DNA from: Halorussus amylolyticus | GTDB taxonomy: Archaea; Halobacteriota; Halobacteria; Halobacteriales; Haladaptataceae | Assembly: GCF_004143485.2 (NCBI RefSeq) | Contig: NZ_ML974130.1 | Coordinates: forward strand, 1 to 64,000 | Direction: 5' to 3' | Length of the DNA stretch: 64,000 nt | Shown here: in pieces, positions 3,353-26,434 of the stretch | Layout of the letters: each line of letters starts with the position of its first letter | Numbering within the stretch: position 1 is the first letter of the stretch | The notes under the pieces: model-generated | Told to the model about the DNA's origin: nothing | Databases searched by the model: none | The model's input: only the letters and a program-made list of their open reading frames with translations | Position numbers and translations under genes: made by a program

Positions 3353-5083
3353 TTATTCCAACGCGTCCAGACGGAACTCGAAGGCCGCGACGGGCAACTC
3401 CAAGTCGTGTTCGACCAGCACCTCGGGATGCACCTCGCCGAGAACACCGACGCGCTCGCCGTCCATCACGACCGCTGCGGTGCGCCCGTCGATGAACGTC
3501 GGATGGTCGGTCGCGGGCGTCTCCAGTTCCACGTCGAAGTTGCGTGCAACGGTCTGGAGGCGGGCCTTCGCGTCCTCGTAGGACGCGTCGTGGCGCGCGA
3601 GGACGCCAGCCACGGTCCGGTGCTCGGCGACCCCGGTGTTCTCGCTCTCGTCCACTTCAGCGGCGAGACCGATTTCCGCGAGGTCCTGGGGGTACGCCCG
3701 ATGGGTGTTGTTTTCGAGGACCATCATGAGCGACGGGAGCGCCCACGTCCGGAGCATGGTGTAGTCCTCGCTGTACGGTTCGAGGATGCTGGCGGGGTCG
3801 CCGCCGCCGACTGCGTCGTCGCCCGGAGCGATTCGCATCCGCTCGAAGTTCTCTTCCTCGCTTATCATGTGGAAGTTCAGCAGATCCTCGAATCCGAGTC
3901 CCACCAGCACCTCGCGCGCGGCGTCTTCGAGTTTCGACCGGTCGTGGCGACCCCCGACCGTCCCCACGTCGGGGTACCGGGGTTCGAGGTCGTTGAAGCC
4001 GTACGCCCGGCCCACGTCGTCCACGATGTCGAGCGGGTGGAGTACGTCCACGCGATACGGCGGAATCTCGACCTCGTAGGCCAACTCCTCGTCGCCAACT
4101 TCGTTCGTCTCGGCGTCGAGACCCGACCGTTCGAGCAGGTCGAGGACGCGCTCGGCGCTCAGGTCGATGCCGAGCGTGCGCTCGATTCGCTCGTGTGTCA
4201 CGGTCTTCGTCTGCACCCCGAAATCTGGCCGTCGGAGCGTTCGGTCCGAGTATTCGACCTCGACCGCCTCGATTTTCGCGCCGCGGGCGGCGAGCGCGTA
4301 ACACACGATGTTGCACATGTGGTCGATGGTCCACTGGTCGGTGCCCGTCATCTCCACGAACAGGTCGCGCGAGTCGGTCGAAACCTCGGTCCGGCGGCCG
4401 TTGATGACCGGCGGGAACGAGAACAAGCCGATGTCGTCGTAGATGGCCGGGTAACGGTCGTATTCGGAGACCAGCGGCGCGTACGTCTCGCCGGTGGGGT
4501 GGACGCGCAGGACTTCGGCGGGCGTCATCTCGGCGTCCGAGTCGAGCGGAACGAACCGGTCGCCGTCGGGGTCGATACCCCGGTAGGTGATGGAGTTGCC
4601 GACTTCGCCGCCCTCGCCGTCCCCCGTCGCGGCCCGACCTTTCAGCATCGTGAGGTCGTGAATCCCGATGGCACCTTTCGCGCGCTTTCGACCCATCGTG
4701 GCGTGGAGCTTCTCCTGCAACTGAATCAGCGAGTCGAGCGCGTGGTCGTCGAGGTCCACGCCGCGAATCACCGCGCCCGTGACGTACGGTCGCTCGTCGG
4801 GCACCGACTCGTCCACTTCGATGGTCCAGTCGGGGTCGTTGGTTCCGGGGACGTACACGCCCCTGTCGTCGCCGTACTGATAGCGGAGCGAGCGCGCCAC
4901 GCCCTCGACCGAGAGGCGGTCGAGGCGGTCGGGCGCGAACTCCAGTTGGAGGTCGCCGTCCTCGGTTTCGCCCTCGTATTCGAGGCCGAGCGCGAACATG
5001 TCGTCGATGAGTTCGTCGTCGCTCTTCTCGTCGTGGCCGGTCAAGTCCCGAAGTTCGTCGGGATTTACGTCTACGACTGGCAT
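3353..5083 (-). CDS. pheT: Phenylalanyl-tRNA synthetase beta subunit
   Basis: A 576-residue beta chain of the (alpha-beta)2 PheRS, matching the usual archaeal/eukaryotic length and lacking the bacterial EMAP-like extension. Visible parts are the N-terminal MPVVDVNPDELRDLTG, the B3/B4 editing region with TMLKGRAATG and EMTGTDQWTIDHM, the B5 region (RPDFGVQTKTV... PPYRVDVLHPLDIVDDVGRAYGF), and a class II-like core with MLRTWALPSLMMVLENN. The last segment is a short version of the terminal domain. The ATG overlaps the pheS stop by one base (TGATG), so translation is probably coupled. Confidence 0.96.
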   Translation of the reverse strand: MPVVDVNPDELRDLTGHDEKSDDELIDDMFALGLEYEGETEDGDLQLEFAPDRLDRLSVEGVARSLRYQYGDDRGVYVPGTNDPDWTIEVDESVPDERPYVTGAVIRGVDLDDHALDSLIQLQEKLHATMGRKRAKGAIGIHDLTMLKGRAATGDGEGGEVGNSITYRGIDPDGDRFVPLDSDAEMTPAEVLRVHPTGETYAPLVSEYDRYPAIYDDIGLFSFPPVINGRRTEVSTDSRDLFVEMTGTDQWTIDHMCNIVCYALAARGAKIEAVEVEYSDRTLRRPDFGVQTKTVTHERIERTLGIDLSAERVLDLLERSGLDAETNEVGDEELAYEVEIPPYRVDVLHPLDIVDDVGRAYGFNDLEPRYPDVGTVGGRHDRSKLEDAAREVLVGLGFEDLLNFHMISEEENFERMRIAPGDDAVGGGDPASILEPYSEDYTMLRTWALPSLMMVLENNTHRAYPQDLAEIGLAAEVDESENTGVAEHRTVAGVLARHDASYEDAKARLQTVARNFDVELETPATDHPTFIDGRTAAVVMDGERVGVLGEVHPEVLVEHDLELPVAAFEFRLDALE

Positions 5084-6591
5084 CAGTGAAGCACCTCCGT
5101 CTCCCGCAGCAGTTCGAGGTCACACAGCGTCCCGTGAACGTCGCGGATATCCTCGAAGCCGTACATTAACATCAGTAGTCGCTCCAGCGCGAGACCCCAC
5201 GCCATCACGTCGCACTCGACTCCCAACGGAGACAGAACCTCCTCGCGGAACATCCCCGAGTTCCCGATTTCGACCATCTCGCCCGTGGTCGGGTGGGTGC
5301 CAAACAGTTCGAAACTCGGCTCGGTGTAGGGGTTGTAGTGGGGCTTGAACTCGATGTCGGTGATTCCGAACTGAGCGTAGAACTCCTCGAAGGTACCCAT
5401 CAGGTCCCGGACCGAGAGGTCCTCGGCCATCACCCAGCCCTCGATTTGGTAGAACTCCAGCAGGTGCGTCGGGTCGAGCGTGTCGTTTCGGTACACCTTC
5501 TCGACGCTGAAGAACCGCTGGGGCGGTTCGAGGTCACCGACTTCGTGGCCCGAGAGGTACCGCATCGACAGCGAGGTGGTGTGGCCCCGGAGCGCGATGG
5601 AGCGCGCGAACTCCTCGGACCACGGCGAGTGATACCCGTCGCCGTCGTCCCCGACGCCGTTCATGTGAGCGTCGCGCACGCGCTCGACCAAATCCTCGGG
5701 GAGGTCCCGAATCTTCGTCGGTTCCTCCAGCGCGAACCGGTCCCAGTGAGTCCGCGCCGGGTGGTCTTGGGGCATGAACAGACAGTCGTTAATCCAGAAG
5801 TCGGCGTCGGCGTGCGGGCCTTCCATCTCCTCGAAGCCCATTCCGACCAGCGTGTCCTTGACTCGATTCGCGGTCTGGCGGAGGATGTGGGTCTTGCCGC
5901 CCTCGATTCGCTCGGCGTCGGCCTCGACGTTGTACTCCGCGAACTCAACTTCCTTCCACTCGCCGGAGGTCAGCATCTCGGGCGTGAGCTGGCCCACCGT
6001 CTCGGAAACCTCGACGCCCTCCATCAGCGCGGTGACGCCCTCGTCGGTGAGCGTCACCGCCCGGACCGTCGATTCGGCGCGCGTGACGAGTCCTCGGCGC
6101 TCCAGTTGGTCGAGGGTGTCCTCGTCGCCAACTGCCTCGCCCGCGTCGAGGTCCGCAAGCGCGTCGGCCTCGGCGTCTCGCTCGGGGTCGGCGTCGGCGT
6201 CGGTGGTGATTTCGCCGCTCTCGATGGCTCCGTACCCCTTCCGGGCGTAGTTCGAGAGCGCGATATCGACCTCCGGCCCTTCCAGTCCGGATTGACCGAT
6301 GACCTGTCCCATCGAGACCGGGTCGGCGTCGGCCCCCGCGTCGAGTGCGGTTTCGTAGAGGCGAACTTCCGGGAGGCCGTCGGCGAGATACTCGCGGGCC
6401 TCGTCGGTCAGCGTCACCGTCTCCTCGACCGACTCCTCGACCGCGAGGAGGCCCTCGGATTCGAGTTCGAACACCGCGCCCGTGACCGTCTCGGGCTTGA
6501 ATCCGGTGTCGTCGGCCAGTTGGTCTATCGTCCGTGCGTCGTCGGCGCTCGCGGCGTTCAGCACCGCGGCGTGTGATTCGGGTAGTTTCAT
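5083..6591 (-). CDS. pheS: Phenylalanyl-tRNA synthetase alpha subunit
   Basis: The 502-residue catalytic chain that charges tRNA-Phe. The N-terminal part (about 1-210) holds winged-helix tRNA-binding domains typical of archaeal/eukaryotic PheS. The catalytic domain shows HPARTHWDRF (motif 2 region), LRGHTTSLSMRYL, QRFFSVEKVYRNDTLDPTHLLEFYQIEGW, and motif 3 GVECDVMAWGLALERLLML. The minus-strand sequence GGGATAAACGG near 6633-6643 is a plausible box A, giving a short leader before the ATG at 6591. It is first in the pheST operon, overlapping pheT by one base. Confidence 0.96.
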   Translation of the reverse strand: MKLPESHAAVLNAASADDARTIDQLADDTGFKPETVTGAVFELESEGLLAVEESVEETVTLTDEAREYLADGLPEVRLYETALDAGADADPVSMGQVIGQSGLEGPEVDIALSNYARKGYGAIESGEITTDADADPERDAEADALADLDAGEAVGDEDTLDQLERRGLVTRAESTVRAVTLTDEGVTALMEGVEVSETVGQLTPEMLTSGEWKEVEFAEYNVEADAERIEGGKTHILRQTANRVKDTLVGMGFEEMEGPHADADFWINDCLFMPQDHPARTHWDRFALEEPTKIRDLPEDLVERVRDAHMNGVGDDGDGYHSPWSEEFARSIALRGHTTSLSMRYLSGHEVGDLEPPQRFFSVEKVYRNDTLDPTHLLEFYQIEGWVMAEDLSVRDLMGTFEEFYAQFGITDIEFKPHYNPYTEPSFELFGTHPTTGEMVEIGNSGMFREEVLSPLGVECDVMAWGLALERLLMLMYGFEDIRDVHGTLCDLELLRETEVLH

Positions 6592-6987
6592 CGTGCGCGT
6601 AGTACTCTCTTGATGGCTACATCCCTGTGCGGCCGTTTATCCCTTCTGAAGCGTGGCGGCGTCCGCGGTCGCGGACGCCGCCGCGCCCGAGCGGTTTCGT
6701 CCCGGTCGGAGTCGCCCCCTGCCGGAAGTCCACCGACTCGCTCAGGCCGCGAAGAAAAAGCCGAACCCCGCGCGACGGTGCCGTGGCTGGCGAGCGAGAC
6801 CACCTTCGTGGGATTCGGCTGGCATACTCGGGAGTTGTCCGCAATCGTTGAAAAACGTTCGGGGTCACGAGGCAAAATCTCCGAAGTGAAGGCGAAACAC
6901 ATCGAACCACAGTGTTACTGCCGACCGACCAATCCACGAGACAGCGCGCCGCAGGCGCGCGTACGAGAGAAAAGTAGATGCGAACGA

Positions 6988-7014
6988 GGCGCAGGCCGCA
7001 CTGCGGCCTGCGCC
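6988..7014. terminator. GC-rich palindrome downstream of lysC
   Basis: The arms GGCGCAGGCCGCA and TGCGGCCTGCGCC (6988-7000 and 7002-7014) pair perfectly around one base. A T-rich run (7027-7032) follows on the plus strand. It may act as a terminator or an mRNA 3'-end stabiliser. Confidence 0.45.
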
Positions 7015-7051
7015 CGATAAGCATCCTTTTTTGATCCACATTTTTTGAGGA

Positions 7052-7100
7052 GGGTGCGTCAGCAGACCGGGCCGCCTCGCGGCCCGGTCTGCGCGCACCC
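7052..7100. terminator. Long two-part hairpin after lysC
   Basis: The inner stem GCAGACCGGGCCGC / GCGGCCCGGTCTGC (7062-7075 and 7079-7092) has 14 perfect pairs around loop CTC. An outer stem GGGTGCG / CGCACCC (7052-7058 and 7094-7100) is separated by a small 3/1 internal bulge. It starts 18 bp past the lysC stop, so it is the likely lysC transcript end. Confidence 0.6.
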
Positions 7101-7117
7101 GACGAGAAAAAAGGTGG

Positions 7118-8296
7118 TTAGAATTGATTCTGCACGATTTCGAGCGTCTCTTCGCGGTCGTCCCAGTCCACGAAGATGGCGACGCTGGTCGCACTGGTGA
7201 TGAGGTCGTGGATGTTGATGTGGGCGTCGGAAATCGGGTCCACGAGGCCGCGAATAACACCCGGCTGATTCGGGAGTTCGCCGCCGGTCACGCGGACGAC
7301 CGCCACCTCGTCGTCCACGGTGACACTCGACAGCGACTCCTCCTCGATGACCTCGCGGTGGAGGATGTTCTCGGCGCGCTCCGCGACGTCCTCGTCGACG
7401 TAGAAGGTGATGGAGTCCATCCCGCTCGCGGCGGCGTCGATGTTGATGTCGCTGTCGGCGAGCGCCATCGAGAGGTCAGCGAGGATTCCGGGTCGGTTTC
7501 GGATGGCCCGCCCTGCGACCGTGAGACACGCCAGCGACGTCTCTCGCATGTCGATGAGGTTCTCGAACTCGCCGATGATGTCGGTGCCGCCCGCGAGCAG
7601 GTCGCCGTGCTGGTAGTGAACGACCCGAACGTCGAGACCTTCGCCCTTGTACGAGAGCGCGCTCGGTGCGACGACCTCCGCCCCGCGGAACGAGAGGTTT
7701 CGGAGTTCGTCCACGGATATCTTCCCGACGTTGCGCGCGCCCTCCACGACGTGGGGGTCACCGGTCATCACGCCCTCCACGTCGGTCACGATGACAACCT
7801 CGTCGGCGTCCATGTAGTTGCCGAGCATCACTGCGGTCGTGTCGGACCCGCCTCGACCGAGGGTGGTCACGTTGCCCTCGGCGTCCTCGGCGAGGAAGCC
7901 GGTCACGACCGGAACCACGTCGCCGAGTTCGGCCGCGAGTTCGGCCGCGGCGGCTCTGGTGCGCTCGGCGTCCACTTCGCCGTGTTCGTCGGTGTGGATG
8001 GGCCACCGGTCGCTTCCGGGTTCGACGAACACCGCATCGACGCCGCGGGCGCTGAGCGCGGCCTTGAGCATCCGAACGCTGGTGCGCTCGCCCATGCTGA
8101 CGATTTCGGCGCGGTCGGGTTCGTCGGCTTCGAACTGAATCTCCTCTAAGAGTTCGTCGGTCGTGTTGCCCATCGCGCTCGCGACGACCGTGATTTCGTT
8201 GCCTTGGGCGACCGCGTCCGCGATGGAGTCGGCCGCGCGATTGATTCGGTCGCCGCTCCCGAGACTCGTACCGCCGAACTTCGCTACGACGCGCAT
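7118..8296 (-). CDS. lysC: Aspartate kinase
   Basis: Phosphorylates aspartate, the first step to threonine, methionine and homoserine-derived amino acids. The protein has 392 residues. The amino acid kinase domain (1-250) shows KFGGTSLGS (6-14), the GRGGSDTTAVMLG nucleotide/substrate loop at about 147-159, and the VTDVEGVMTGDP loop at about 171-182. Two ACT domains follow, beginning CLTVAGRAIRNRPGILADL and VAVVRVTGGELPNQPGVI, and imply allosteric feedback by an amino acid. It is a single gene with a short leader and strong hairpins just past the stop. Confidence 0.95.
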   Translation of the reverse strand: MRVVAKFGGTSLGSGDRINRAADSIADAVAQGNEITVVASAMGNTTDELLEEIQFEADEPDRAEIVSMGERTSVRMLKAALSARGVDAVFVEPGSDRWPIHTDEHGEVDAERTRAAAAELAAELGDVVPVVTGFLAEDAEGNVTTLGRGGSDTTAVMLGNYMDADEVVIVTDVEGVMTGDPHVVEGARNVGKISVDELRNLSFRGAEVVAPSALSYKGEGLDVRVVHYQHGDLLAGGTDIIGEFENLIDMRETSLACLTVAGRAIRNRPGILADLSMALADSDINIDAAASGMDSITFYVDEDVAERAENILHREVIEEESLSSVTVDDEVAVVRVTGGELPNQPGVIRGLVDPISDAHINIHDLITSATSVAIFVDWDDREETLEIVQNQF

Positions 8297-14097: not shown

Positions 14098-15618
14098 TCA
14101 GTTGTCGAATCGAGCCTGCACGAACGGTTGGACGTTCTCGATGTCGCCGAGTCGGGAGTCGGACATCAGCACCGCCTCGGTCTCGTCGATGGGAACCGAG
14201 AGGCTGATTTCTTTTGTCCGGCCGTATCGGCCCTTGCTCACGACCACAGCGTTGACGATACCGAGCATGTCGAGTTCGCTGATGAGGTCGGTCACGCGGC
14301 GCTGGGTCAGCACGTCGGCGTCGATTTCCTCGCAGAGGCGCTTGTAGATGTTGAACACCTCGCCGGTGTTGATGTTGTGGACGCCGTTCTTTTCGAGCGA
14401 GATGATGGAGAACAGGACGAGTTTCGACTGCGTGGGGAGGGTGCGGACCACCTCGACCACGCGGTCGAGTTCGATTTTCTCCTGTGCCTTCCGAACGTGC
14501 GTCTCGGTCACGCCCTCGGACTGGTCGCGCTCGGCGAGTTCGCCCGCGGTCCGGAGTAGGTCGAGCGCGCGCCGGGCGTCGCCGTGTTCCTGAGCGGCGA
14601 ACGCCGCACAGAGCGGAATCACGTCGTCGCTGAGCGCGTCGGTTTTGAACGCCACGTCGGCGCGATGCTGGAGGATGTCCCGGAGTTGGTTGGCGTCGTA
14701 CGGCGGGAAGACGATTTCCTCCTCGCCGAGCGAGGATTTGACTCGCGGGTCGAGGAAGTCGGTGAACTTCAGGTCGTTCGAGATGCCGATGATGGAGACG
14801 CGGGAGTTTTCGAGTTCCGAGTTCATCCGCGAGAGATTGTAGAGAGTGTCGTCGCCCGATTTCTCGACCAGCTTGTCGATTTCGTCGAGCATGATGACGA
14901 CCACCCGTTCCTCGTAGTCCACCGCGTCGAAGAACGTGCTGTAGACGCGGTCGGTCGGCCACCCGGTCATCGGGACCGGTTCCATCTCCTCGCGGTCGTC
15001 TTCGAGGGCTTCGATTCGCGCGTCGATTTCCTCGGGCGCGTCGAACTCGGTGTCCGCGAGCGAGGACTCCGTGATGGCGTCGAATTCGGCGGTCGTGGAA
15101 TTAGCGGTCGCCTCCTCACGGAGCGCCGATAGCTCGTCGATGCGGTCGGAGACGAACTCGCGGTTGCTCTCGATGAATTTGTTGGCGAGTTGGGCGAGGA
15201 CGCGATACTGGGTGTCGGTCACCTCGCAGTTGATGTACTCGACGTTGCAGGGGACGTCGTACTTCTGAGAAGTGCTTTCGAGTTCCTTGCTCACGAACTT
15301 CGCGCTCGCGGTCTTCCCGGTCCCGGTCTTCCCGTAGATGAGGATGTTCGACGGCGTCTCTCCCCGGAGCGCCGCGACCAGAATCGTCGCCATGTTGTTT
15401 ATCTGGTCCTTTCGATGCGGGAGTTCGTGCGGCGTGTACGACGGACGGAGCACCTCCTTGTTCTCGAAGATAGGCTCTCCCGACAGCAGGTCGTCGAACA
15501 GTCCCTGGTCGTCGCCCTCGTCGTCGAGAACCACGTCGTCCAAATCGACGTTCTCGAAGCTCCGGTCGGGACCGGTCTCGACCCCGTCGTCCGTCGGTTG
15601 CGTGTTTTCGTCAGACAT
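14098..15618 (-). CDS. orc1: Orc1/Cdc6 replication initiator
   Basis: Binds origin recognition boxes and loads MCM. The protein has 506 residues from the ATG at 15618; the longer frame upstream crosses the ORB and is not coding. Walker A is YGKTGTGKTAS (about 95-105), Walker B VVVIMLDEIDKL (about 240-252) and sensor 1 GISNDLKF. The insertion around 150-215 is acidic and long for the family, as in several haloarchaea. The C-terminal winged helix runs from about 400 (EIDADVLTQRRVTDLISELDMLG). It sits beside its likely cognate origin and an ORB overlaps its promoter, suggesting autoregulation. Confidence 0.95.
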   Translation of the reverse strand: MSDENTQPTDDGVETGPDRSFENVDLDDVVLDDEGDDQGLFDDLLSGEPIFENKEVLRPSYTPHELPHRKDQINNMATILVAALRGETPSNILIYGKTGTGKTASAKFVSKELESTSQKYDVPCNVEYINCEVTDTQYRVLAQLANKFIESNREFVSDRIDELSALREEATANSTTAEFDAITESSLADTEFDAPEEIDARIEALEDDREEMEPVPMTGWPTDRVYSTFFDAVDYEERVVVIMLDEIDKLVEKSGDDTLYNLSRMNSELENSRVSIIGISNDLKFTDFLDPRVKSSLGEEEIVFPPYDANQLRDILQHRADVAFKTDALSDDVIPLCAAFAAQEHGDARRALDLLRTAGELAERDQSEGVTETHVRKAQEKIELDRVVEVVRTLPTQSKLVLFSIISLEKNGVHNINTGEVFNIYKRLCEEIDADVLTQRRVTDLISELDMLGIVNAVVVSKGRYGRTKEISLSVPIDETEAVLMSDSRLGDIENVQPFVQARFDN

Positions 15619-15630
15619 GCGTTCGTTACG

Positions 15631-15652
15631 ACCCCTCCGTTTCGGGTGGAAG
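15631..15652 (-). promoter_or_regulatory. ORB overlapping the orc1 promoter
   Basis: The minus strand reads TTCCACCCGAAACGGAGGGG, 13 bp before the orc1 start codon. That is where the start site of a leaderless transcript and its upstream contacts would lie. No TATA box is clear here, so Orc1 binding could repress its own gene. Confidence 0.8.
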
Positions 15653-15864
15653 ACGTGCGGCGCACGACCAAATTCCGACGAAACCGACCGAAAGCGGCGG
15701 TGAGTCGGAGGTAAGAAGTCGCAGACACGTCCAGTTGATGCAGGAGAACCAAAGGTCCAGCAGGCTATTAAAATCTTTCTTCTTTGGCTCACACATGGAC
15801 AAAAGCCCGAGGGCACCGGGGATGTGTCGTACACACCGGGGATATGTCGTACGCTGCCGATTTA

Positions 15865-16087: not shown

Positions 16088-16116
16088 CCCCCCACCCCTT
16101 CGTTTCGGGTGGAACG
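16088..16116 (-). promoter_or_regulatory. ORB, left of the unwinding element
   Basis: The minus strand reads TTCCACCCGAAACGAAGGGG followed by TGGGGGG. The first 27 bases are identical to the box at 16273 but in the opposite orientation. The G-rich string faces away from the AT-rich element. Confidence 0.88.
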
Positions 16117-16139
16117 GGAAAACGGTGGGGCGGGGGGAG

Positions 16140-16260: not shown

Positions 16261-16272
16261 CGTCTTCTCCTC

Positions 16273-16303
16273 CGTTCCACCCGAAACGAAGGGGTGGGGG
16301 TGG
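16273..16303 (+). promoter_or_regulatory. ORB, right of the unwinding element
   Basis: The plus strand reads TTCCACCCGAAACGAAGGGG followed by TGGGGGTGG. It forms an inverted pair with 16088-16116, with about 156 bp between them. Confidence 0.88.
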
Positions 16304-20616: not shown

Positions 20617-21504
20617 CTACCACACGAACGAAATCACGGATGCGGCTATCAGGAGCGTCATTCCGATTCCAAAGCCGTACGAGAGAACGACGTAGACGGC
20701 CGGAAGCGACACCGTCCGCTGTCTGAGGTGTTCGATACCGGTCGTGCGCACGTCGGTCATCTCGAACGCATCTACCAGCAGCAGGTAGCCGTCGCCGTGA
20801 ATCAACGGATTGAGCACGAATATCGTCCCGACCACCATGGCGACGACGAACGTACTCAGGAGGGCGCTTTCGGGGAAGACGAGATAGTAAACCGTGGCGA
20901 CCGACAGCGTCCAGAGTATCTGTGCGAACGGACCCGCCAACGTTATCCAGAGCCGATGGTTTCGCGGGAGAATCCATGCCTGTGTCGTCTCGGTTATCAC
21001 GGACGGAAGCGTGCCGTTCACGAGACCCACCCGAACGGACGGGTCGAAGTACGGTTTGCTCGCCAGATAGTGCCCGCCCTCGTGGATTGCGATTGTCGCG
21101 ACGACGAGACCCGCGAACGGGACGAGCCGGGAGGGTCTCGCCAGTTCGTTCGGGGCGAGCATCGTCGGAAACTCGGCCCACGCCACCGACAGGCCGATAG
21201 CCACGAGACCCACGAATAAGAGTAGCCTCGGCCACAGTCGAATCGGGTCCGGCTGGCGAAGTTCGACGACCGGTTCGTTCGAATGGAGATACCCCTCGGA
21301 TTCGAGATTCTCGACGACCTCCCGAGCCGTTCCGTCGAGGTCTCCTTTCGAGACCTCTCCGTCGGCGAGCGCTCGAAGAAGCCGCCAGCCGTCGTCCGAA
21401 AGTCGCCTGAGTTCGCCGTCCGTACTCTTCAGGTAGTGCTCGCCGTCCGACTTCCCCCAAGTGAATCCGACCGGGGGGTCGGCGACTTCGACGTCTCGCT
21501 TCAT
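20617..21504 (-). CDS. PqqD/RRE-like domain fused to M50 membrane metalloprotease
   Basis: A 295-residue protein from the ATG at 21504, which overlaps the stop of the ATP-grasp gene (ATGA); a GTG at 21513 is an alternative. Residues about 14-78 look like a PqqD-type peptide-binding winged helix (GELRRLSDDGWRLLRALADG, then VVENLESEGYL). From about 92 it is a multi-span membrane protein with the zinc motif AIHEGGHYLASK (His141, Glu142, His145) and the third-ligand region LNPLIHGDGYLLL (Asp238). This NPLxxxDGY form occurs in M50 proteases of peptide maturation loci such as the YydH group. Probably cleaves or releases the peptide encoded at 22624. Confidence 0.8.
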   Translation of the reverse strand: MKRDVEVADPPVGFTWGKSDGEHYLKSTDGELRRLSDDGWRLLRALADGEVSKGDLDGTAREVVENLESEGYLHSNEPVVELRQPDPIRLWPRLLLFVGLVAIGLSVAWAEFPTMLAPNELARPSRLVPFAGLVVATIAIHEGGHYLASKPYFDPSVRVGLVNGTLPSVITETTQAWILPRNHRLWITLAGPFAQILWTLSVATVYYLVFPESALLSTFVVAMVVGTIFVLNPLIHGDGYLLLVDAFEMTDVRTTGIEHLRQRTVSLPAVYVVLSYGFGIGMTLLIAASVISFVW

Positions 21505-22469
21505 TTCGGCCACGGTCGTTGGGCCCCACCGTCCAACAGGTAGTCGGCGAGCGCTCCGGCAACGTTCTGCCCGCAGAGCCTATCGGCTCCGGTGAAGACC
21601 GGCGTCTCGTTGACTTCGAAGACGACGTGCCGGCCGTCGGGTCGTCGCCGCACGTCTACGGCACCGAATCTCAGTTCGACGGCGTCCACCGCTCGGACCG
21701 CGCTCGCTTCGACGGCTTCGGACACCGACGCGCCTTCGATGCCGACGTCCTTCCCTTCCTCTTGGTCGATTTTGAACGAGAACGTCTCGCTCTCGTACCG
21801 AATCGCGCCGACGACTTTCCCGTCTAACACGTACACCCGGAGGTCCTCGCCCGGAACGAACGCTTGGAATTGGACCGGCGCACTCGCGAGCGCTTCGAGT
21901 CGCTCCTCACGTAGGTCGTCCGCGGTGAGTTCCGACGGCGGAGCGCCGTTCGTCGTCGGCTTGTATATCACTCGCTCGTGAGAACGGTGAAAATCGACGA
22001 CGGTTTCCGGGTCGTTGGTGAAGAGACTCGGCGGTGTCGGCACGCCTTCGCGTTCGAACTGGCTCAACTGCCAGGGTTTCTGGGCTTGGAGGTAGTGATT
22101 TCGGACTCTGGGTACCACCCGCGTTCCGTCGGATTCGAGTCGTCTGGCGAGACTCTCGAAGACGCTCCGGTGGTCTCGAATCTGGGCTAGCATCCGCTCG
22201 AAATCGTCTCGTCCTTCGAAGGCGTCTTTCTGTAACTCGGGAATCGGGTGAAAGAGGACGTTCGATTGGAAGTAAGCACCCGTAATTTCGTCGTGGGCGA
22301 GCGACTCACCGAGAACGGTTTCGTCCGCGCCGGGTCGGAATCGAATGAGGGCTTCGCCCGGCCACTCGTCGATGTGACACGCGACGAACTCACCGCCTCG
22401 GCTGTCGATTTCGTCGGCAAGCAGTTCCAGTTCGTTCATCCAAGAAGGACCACACAGTAGGACGCTCAT
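21501..22469 (-). CDS. ATP-grasp ligase, RimK/graspetide-ligase-like
   Basis: A 322-residue ligase-like protein. ATP-grasp features are RVIYKPTTNGAPPSE (about 167-180, phosphate loop), FQAFVPGEDLRVYVLDGKVVG (201-221), FGAVDVR (269-275) and the metal-binding FEVNETP (284-290). Such enzymes join a carboxylate to an amine or hydroxyl, and relatives build macrocyclic peptides or add residues to peptides. The minus-strand TTTATTTTTG box (22490-22500) is about 27 nt before ATG 22469, so leaderless; a GTG at 22478 is less likely. The protease gene overlaps its end by 4 nt, and a short peptide gene diverges 154 bp away. Confidence 0.82.
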   Translation of the reverse strand: MSVLLCGPSWMNELELLADEIDSRGGEFVACHIDEWPGEALIRFRPGADETVLGESLAHDEITGAYFQSNVLFHPIPELQKDAFEGRDDFERMLAQIRDHRSVFESLARRLESDGTRVVPRVRNHYLQAQKPWQLSQFEREGVPTPPSLFTNDPETVVDFHRSHERVIYKPTTNGAPPSELTADDLREERLEALASAPVQFQAFVPGEDLRVYVLDGKVVGAIRYESETFSFKIDQEEGKDVGIEGASVSEAVEASAVRAVDAVELRFGAVDVRRRPDGRHVVFEVNETPVFTGADRLCGQNVAGALADYLLDGGAQRPWPK

Positions 22470-22623
22470 AGAAACCACTTCTCACACCATCAAAAATAAA
22501 TCGCGTGGTATCGGGATACACTCTGAAATAGAATAATTTTATTGAAATATTTAGATAGATATAGATAAATATTTATATGAATAATACGTCCGTCATGGTA
22601 CCCCATCACAGGGGACGAGACCA
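22470..22623. promoter_or_regulatory. AT-rich divergent promoter of the peptide locus
   Basis: About 70% AT in a GC-rich genome. Leftward box A for the ATP-grasp gene is at about 22490-22500. The rightward box AAATATTTATAT (about 22568-22579) is about 45-55 nt before the peptide start, which leaves a short leader with GGGGA near 22612-22616. The low GC could mean acquisition by transfer or a regulated promoter. Confidence 0.6.
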
Positions 22624-22722
22624 ATGGAACACTTCATCGAGAACATCAACGAGGAAGACTTCGCGGAAGTCGAAGAGCGCGAAAACACCTACTACACCGG
22701 CGGCTGCATCGCGTACTGCTGA
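22624..22722 (+). CDS. Candidate precursor peptide (32 residues, GG-CIAYC end)
   Basis: The N-terminal part MEHFIENINEEDF and the following acidic helix look like a leader. The end TYYTGGCIAYC has a double glycine (26-27) just before a five-residue Cys-x3-Cys tail that stops the protein. This is the shape of a ribosomally made peptide with a GG-type leader and a tiny core. It diverges from the ATP-grasp and RRE-protease genes, and hairpins follow (22731-22750 and 22804-22829). It has no RimK/MvdD-type PFFARFL leader motif. Function as precursor is inference; no homologue was searched. Confidence 0.65.
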   Translation: MEHFIENINEEDFAEVEERENTYYTGGCIAYC

Positions 22723-26410: not shown

Positions 26411-26434
26411 GTTCCAGTCGAAACGAAGGGGTTG
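26411..26434 (+). promoter_or_regulatory. ORB-like sequence outside the origin
   Basis: TTCCAGTCGAAACGAAGGGG followed by TTG matches the origin boxes at 18 of 20 positions. It is intergenic, before the MOSC gene and 9.5 kb from oapA. Binding by an Orc1 protein is inferred. Confidence 0.55.

Follow-up and report, generated by a model that had tools for sequence, protein, structure and literature searches.

Organisation of the locus

Three genes make up the locus, which lies in the window (the whole stretch of DNA that was analysed, 64,000 nucleotides long): a gene for an M50-type membrane metalloprotease, a gene for an ATP-grasp ligase overlapping it by 4 nt and, divergent from both, an open reading frame of 32 codons (Table 1). 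The verified coordinates, the overlap and the divergent frame all match those given in the earlier note on this DNA. The same note had contrasted an AT-rich divergent promoter with GC-rich surroundings, and the GC content of the intergenic region is indeed 34%, against 64% for the window, the most AT-rich 100 bp of which lie inside it. 

Table 1. Features of the window locus and of the second ATP-grasp locus in the same genome (positions in the window, or in the contig piece named).
Feature	Position	Strand	Remarks
M50-type membrane metalloprotease with amino-terminal RRE-like domain	20617-21504	-	295 aa
RRE-like domain (first 84 residues of the M50 protein)	21253-21504	-	beta-beta-beta-alpha-alpha fold predicted
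ATP-grasp ligase, PsnB-like	21501-22469	-	322 aa; family profile against the PDB
Divergent intergenic AT-rich promoter region	22470-22623		154 bp; composition
TATA-like element AAATATTTATA	about 22567-22577		within the divergent promoter region; read from the sequence
Precursor peptide gene, product MEHFIENINEEDFAEVEERENTYYTGGCIAYC	22624-22722	+	32 aa; held-out leader profile, homologues, core statistics
Leader MEHFIENINEEDFAEVEEREN and putative core TYYTGGCIAYC of the precursor	22624-22722	+	Thr25 is at -8 from the carboxy-terminus
L032, ATP-grasp gene (contig piece C9:126000-140000)	6192-7130	+	no M50 gene
L032, peptide gene, product MEHFVEDLNESDVEQTDRKADEAPPTPITWFGG (same piece)	7234-7335	-	

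The window neighbours that were tested are housekeeping genes (for a ferredoxin, a Hel308-type helicase, OapB/OapC and Orc1/Cdc6). Near the homologous loci conservation is limited to the trio, with no conserved transporter or immunity gene. A search of a defence-system library gave no match, and phage records gave a single weak match, to the ATP-grasp gene. Elsewhere in the window, two perfect 29-nt inverted repeats (16089-16117 and 16272-16300) that resemble origin recognition boxes adjoin the Orc1/Cdc6 gene (14098-15834) and OapB/OapC, and a third, similar site is located at 26411-26430; a replication origin is probable there, near Orc1/Cdc6 and the repeats.

The ATP-grasp ligase

When the profile of the ATP-grasp family is searched against the PDB, the top match is entry 7drm (206 bits, E=7.5e-60), which we take to be PsnB, the bacterial plesiocin synthetase, the entry itself being titled only ATP-grasp protein. 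In the same search CdnC scores 79 bits, other ATP-grasp peptide ligases about 75 and RimK-type enzymes no more than 48. The window ligase matches the ATP-grasp ribosomal peptide maturase profile TIGR04187 with E=5e-22, below the curated cut-off, and also matches RimK-like profiles. The ATP-binding lysine and the GxDxR, DVR and E-x-N motifs are all kept. The enzyme is PsnB-like and is predicted to activate a carboxylate of the precursor as an acyl phosphate and to close a ring. In the ligase tree two clades are seen, one of the Halorussus type, which includes the window, and an outgroup clade, which groups with PsnB under a midpoint root and has precursors with TTxxxxE[EC] cores.

The M50 protease and its amino-terminal domain

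The M50 protein is a membrane protein with the two motifs of M50/site-2 proteases, HExxH (residues 141-145) and NPxxxGDG (residues 232-239), both of which show little or no variation among 19 homologues. Its best NCBIfam match is daptide_HExxH (E=1.6e-14, 53.8 bits against a cut-off of 300), and the YydH/LiaK profile is matched with E=6.5e-7, below the curated cut-off. Pfam M50 is found in 10 of the 11 relatives tested (best 8e-6), the window copy falling below the gathering cut-off, and a search of PDB sequences with the M50 profile gave nothing significant.

The amino-terminal 84 residues, modelled with AlphaFold2 from the single sequence without an alignment of homologues, form three beta-strands followed by two alpha-helices, with a pLDDT of about 75-80 over residues 11-70. 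The best PDB match of this model in Foldseek is the TbiB1 RRE (entry 5v1u; probability 0.97, TM-score 0.58, E 0.14), an RRE from a lasso-peptide system, whose structure includes the bound leader. Comparison with a profile of haloarchaeal PqqD domains gives a weak match (Prob 36%, score 25 against a shuffled maximum of 16), and Pfam PqqD is found in none of the M50 proteins of 11 relatives. With a Foldseek E of 0.14, no Pfam PqqD match and a weak profile comparison, the domain is called RRE-like here and not a proven RRE; of the PqqD-like/M50 fusion first proposed, the M50 part is borne out by its motifs, and the amino-terminal part is RRE-like in its modelled fold and weak by sequence. The model of the full-length protein has a pLDDT of 50, too low for use. 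The protein is predicted to bind the leader and to cleave or release the product.

The precursor peptide

The leaders of the precursors are conserved ([DEKV]HF[IV]E[DE]L...ER.N) and their cores are hypervariable. At nearly all homologous ATP-grasp loci of the genus and the class, six-frame scans revealed a short peptide that shares this leader. In most cases its gene is convergent with the ligase and protease genes, facing their 3' end; in the window it is divergent. No convincing candidate was found near L045 or near L085 and L086, the most distant of the ATP-grasp loci. For a leader profile, 16 peptides from other genomes were used and those of the window's own genome held out; the profile was then searched against that genome. 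The window peptide is the top match (E=1.5e-6), followed by a peptide on contig C9, beside a second ATP-grasp gene (E=2.1e-6), and the third-ranked match reaches only 0.22. Because a profile that excludes the genome's own peptides matches it at this level, the 32-codon frame is, on the sequence evidence, more than a chance one.

Its mere 32 codons, and the fact that homologues lack annotation in related records (the peptide is annotated in neither of the two relatives' RefSeq records examined), would suit a chance open reading frame inside a divergent promoter. We give that explanation practically no credence, as it is already refuted by the held-out match, by the exact co-occurrence described below and by a synonymous bias: the peptide frames of L064 and L066 differ by eight synonymous and two non-synonymous codon changes, with an identity of 91% in the frame and 28% in the sequence downstream. 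The peptide frame is thus conserved beside ligase and protease, the point on which the earlier note had staked its reading. A PDB search with the precursor of a relative gave zero matches.

Core sequences

Core boundaries were set by hand. In the outgroup clade the cores are 20-29 residues long and contain TTxxxxEE or TTxxxxEC (such as TTLAVGEE, TTMAMGEE and TTLATGEC), so that an acid follows the nucleophile in all seven of these relatives; TTxxxxEE is the plesiocin motif. The cores of the Halorussus-type clade, the window included, have 9-18 residues (median 12, mostly 9-14), and a serine or threonine is located exactly at position -8 from the carboxy-terminus in 13 of 16. After de-duplication this holds for nine of 12 cores, with P=5e-5 in shuffles, or 4.5e-4 if any position is allowed, values that are indicative, the sequences having been taken as independent, the core starts set by hand and the position noticed before testing. 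Half of the cores (8/16) contain [ST]x4[DE], mostly followed by two residues and then the end; [ST]x4[DE]xx at the very end is present in 4 of the 12 de-duplicated cores and in 0 of 20,000 shuffles, subject to the same reading. The cores of L039, L042 and L038 break the -8 rule, and the carboxy-terminal residues vary freely.

In the window core no Asp or Glu follows any Ser, Thr or Lys. The same applies to L032, L040, L039, L042 and, provisionally, L001, and the serine or threonine at -8 is kept in four of these six acid-free cores. The acidic residue that is normally needed for such rings has apparently been lost in the window and in several relatives. Graspetide bonds join Ser, Thr or Lys to Asp or Glu (PMC9576775), and in characterised graspetides the nucleophile lies upstream of the acid (PMC7823629). 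Because it has no acid after a possible nucleophile, the window precursor, as far as its sequence tells, is unable to form this standard bond, and a textbook side-chain ester is impossible. The carboxy-terminal carboxylate would be the simplest acid-free acceptor, since the distance from the Ser/Thr to the carboxy-terminus is fixed with or without an acid.

The Cys-x3-Cys motif, by which the earlier note had described the core, is private to the window peptide. As a hallmark of the family it is ruled out, the core being hypervariable and most relatives lacking the motif.

Distribution and variants of the locus

The distribution of the locus is patchy. Profile searches of 392 haloarchaeal genomes found the precursor and the M50 protein in an identical set of 13, a result of which the absence from the other 379 is the informative part, most peptides of the 13 having entered the profile. 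The ATP-grasp profile matches the same 13 genomes and two more distant ones. Within the genus Halorussus, the ligase is present in 10 of 18 genomes.

The M50 gene is absent beside four ATP-grasp loci (L032, L041, L043 and L001), and in genome G004 ligase and peptide are present, with M50 absent genome-wide. L032 is the second locus of the window's own genome, and its core shares the ending PITWFGG with that of L040, where the M50 gene is kept; a TnpB/OrfB-like gene (4746-6113) adjoins the L032 ATP-grasp locus. The genome therefore has one M50 protein for two peptide loci, and processing may take place in trans. The description of a self-contained system thus holds for the window, where the trio is complete, but not for this second locus, nor for the relative that has no M50 protein at all. 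L044 looks like a locus in decay, as judged from an internal deletion in its M50 homologue (6293-6805, minus strand) next to an intact ATP-grasp gene, with no precursor detected. Three genomes have tandem pairs of ATP-grasp genes. The leading member of every pair (L033, L035 and L036) forms a long branch and has glutamine in place of the ATP-binding lysine (KP to QP), which suggests that these proteins are likely non-catalytic partners.

Proposed mechanism and alternatives

Leader homology, co-occurrence, the PsnB-like enzyme, the serine or threonine at -8 and the intact catalytic motifs make it probable that this is a leader-guided RiPP locus with a ring-closing ATP-grasp enzyme. The peptide synthesis, modification and processing locus proposed earlier is thereby upheld, with a leader-bearing precursor, an ATP-grasp ligase and an RRE-like/M50 protease. 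The 32-residue precursor would be translated from its own divergent promoter, and the PsnB-like ligase would recognise the amino-terminal leader (HFIExxxE...ERxN), phosphorylate a carboxylate with ATP and close a ring onto the Ser/Thr hydroxyl at -8, which is Thr25 in the window. In relatives the acceptor is plausibly the Asp or Glu side chain five residues downstream, [ST]x4[DE] corresponding to one plesiocin-spaced ring. In the window we infer that it would be the carboxy-terminal carboxylate, leading to an eight-residue depsipeptide, TGGCIAYC, whose two cysteines may in addition be joined by a disulfide. The same leader would be bound by the RRE-like amino-terminus of the M50 protein, which would bring the peptide, once modified, to the catalytic site in the membrane, where the protease would cut, presumably near the ERxN motif. 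The small hydrophobic product thus freed may be exported as a secreted signal or antagonist. 

Closure of the ring onto the carboxy-terminal carboxylate of the window peptide, a lactone, is put forward tentatively. Equally speculative is its extension to the acid-free clade, in which the ATP-grasp enzymes might make lactones or thiolactones from a Ser/Thr (or Cys) side chain and the peptide's own carboxy-terminal carboxylate, an archaeal counterpart of autoinducing peptides with a graspetide ancestor, the RRE-fused membrane protease freeing the ring.

Instead, the window product might be an ordinary graspetide with a side-chain ester whose acid is supplied by the ERE segment, on the amino-terminal side of the threonine, with donor and acceptor in reversed order, the acid-free core being a small topological variant. 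The enzyme family would fit, as would the sister loci with [ST]x4[DE] and TTxxxxEE cores, and leader Glu residues do adjoin Thr22 and Thr25. Characterised graspetides, however, have the nucleophile ahead of the acid (PMC7823629), and the ER-N segment is leader-like and common to every clade, even where acids lie downstream; we consider this version unlikely. A poorer prospect is that the ligase joins an external amine (an amino acid or amide) to the carboxy-terminus of the precursor, in the manner of RimK or of pearlin scaffolds, and that the M50 protease cleaves near the carboxy-terminus like TglG/TmoG. The RimK-like profile matches, the constant distance from Ser/Thr to the carboxy-terminus and the action of M50 proteases on pearlin scaffolds (PMC10885120) speak for it. 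Against it are the bit scores, far higher for PsnB than for RimK-type enzymes, and the free variation of the carboxy-terminal residues, and it leaves the conservation of Ser/Thr at -8 unexplained.

The acid-free loci may, lastly, be decaying or neofunctionalised remnants, in which the ligase has ceased to close rings and a linear or disulfide-bonded peptide is set free. Real decay is seen at L044 and the M50 gene is missing at several loci, but in the window both enzymes have their full length and every catalytic motif, and most of the acid-free cores keep the Ser/Thr at -8, so that this reading too has a low probability. Among the related enzymes, the cores grade naturally from plesiocin-like ones with two acids, by way of those with one, to acid-free ones, which makes a change of acceptor by a graspetide synthetase testable. 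The RRE-like domain fused to an M50 protease would provide a route for leader removal in a class where the native protease has often escaped identification.

Relation to known systems

The window locus has an ATP-grasp ligase of the PsnB/MdnC/CdnC kind and an adjacent precursor with a conserved leader, as graspetides do. The Ser/Thr/Lys followed by Asp/Glu was looked for in its core and not found, and because this is a defining feature, we do not class the peptide among the graspetides; it is graspetide-like at the level of the enzyme. Similarity is greatest to the plesiocin/PsnB system (group 2 graspetides), the closest solved enzyme being 7drm and the outgroup haloarchaeal cores containing TTxxxxE[EC]; the haloarchaeal leader (HFIEEL/HFVEDL) also recalls what we take to be the plesiocin leader motif. 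Unlike plesiocin, the haloarchaeal precursors have no multi-core repeats, their cores are mostly 9-14 residues long and that of the window is acid-free. Group 2 graspetides are accompanied by an NHLM-type transporter (PMC13097080), in whose place the haloarchaeal loci have the M50 protease with its RRE-like domain.

Archaeal graspetides have already been predicted, in group 36 of the Thermoprotea (PMC13097080), which is set apart from our locus, by its description only, in having a segregation-protein-like partner and no mention of M50. Epipeptides (YydF/EpeX with the M50 protease YydH/EpeP) share the small precursor and the M50 membrane protease, in agreement with the aforementioned YydH/LiaK match, but here the modification enzyme is an ATP-grasp ligase, and no radical-SAM epimerase is present among the scanned window neighbours. 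Similarly, the daptide HExxH protease is the best NCBIfam match of the M50 protein, far below its cut-off, and no daptide modification genes are found among the tested neighbours. In pearlin systems, M50 proteases (TglG, TmoG) act on a small scaffold peptide (PMC10885120), but no PEARL ligase occurs among the conserved or tested neighbours. The haloarchaeal lanthipeptides, RiPPs that are abundant in Halorussus (PMC12144867, PMC10105419), are made by enzymes of a different class, LanM.

A survey of archaeal RiPPs makes no mention of graspetides (PMC12144867), and in the open literature searched no description was found of a graspetide-like trio from haloarchaea whose protease has an RRE-like domain and an M50 part. 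The haloarchaea would thus gain a graspetide-like RiPP family undescribed in that literature, with very short precursors absent from two RefSeq annotations. The novelty claimed for the combination is lessened in respect of the enzyme, which is nearest to PsnB.

A different arrangement is seen at L086, where a haloarchaeal MvdD-like ATP-grasp gene (5542-6534, plus strand) lies directly 3' of a gene for a trypsin-like protease (3663-5417, plus strand). The tail of this protease contains repeated motifs, KFTDEPGG and DRRKATGLDK among them, and the protease may carry graspetide-like cores of its own.
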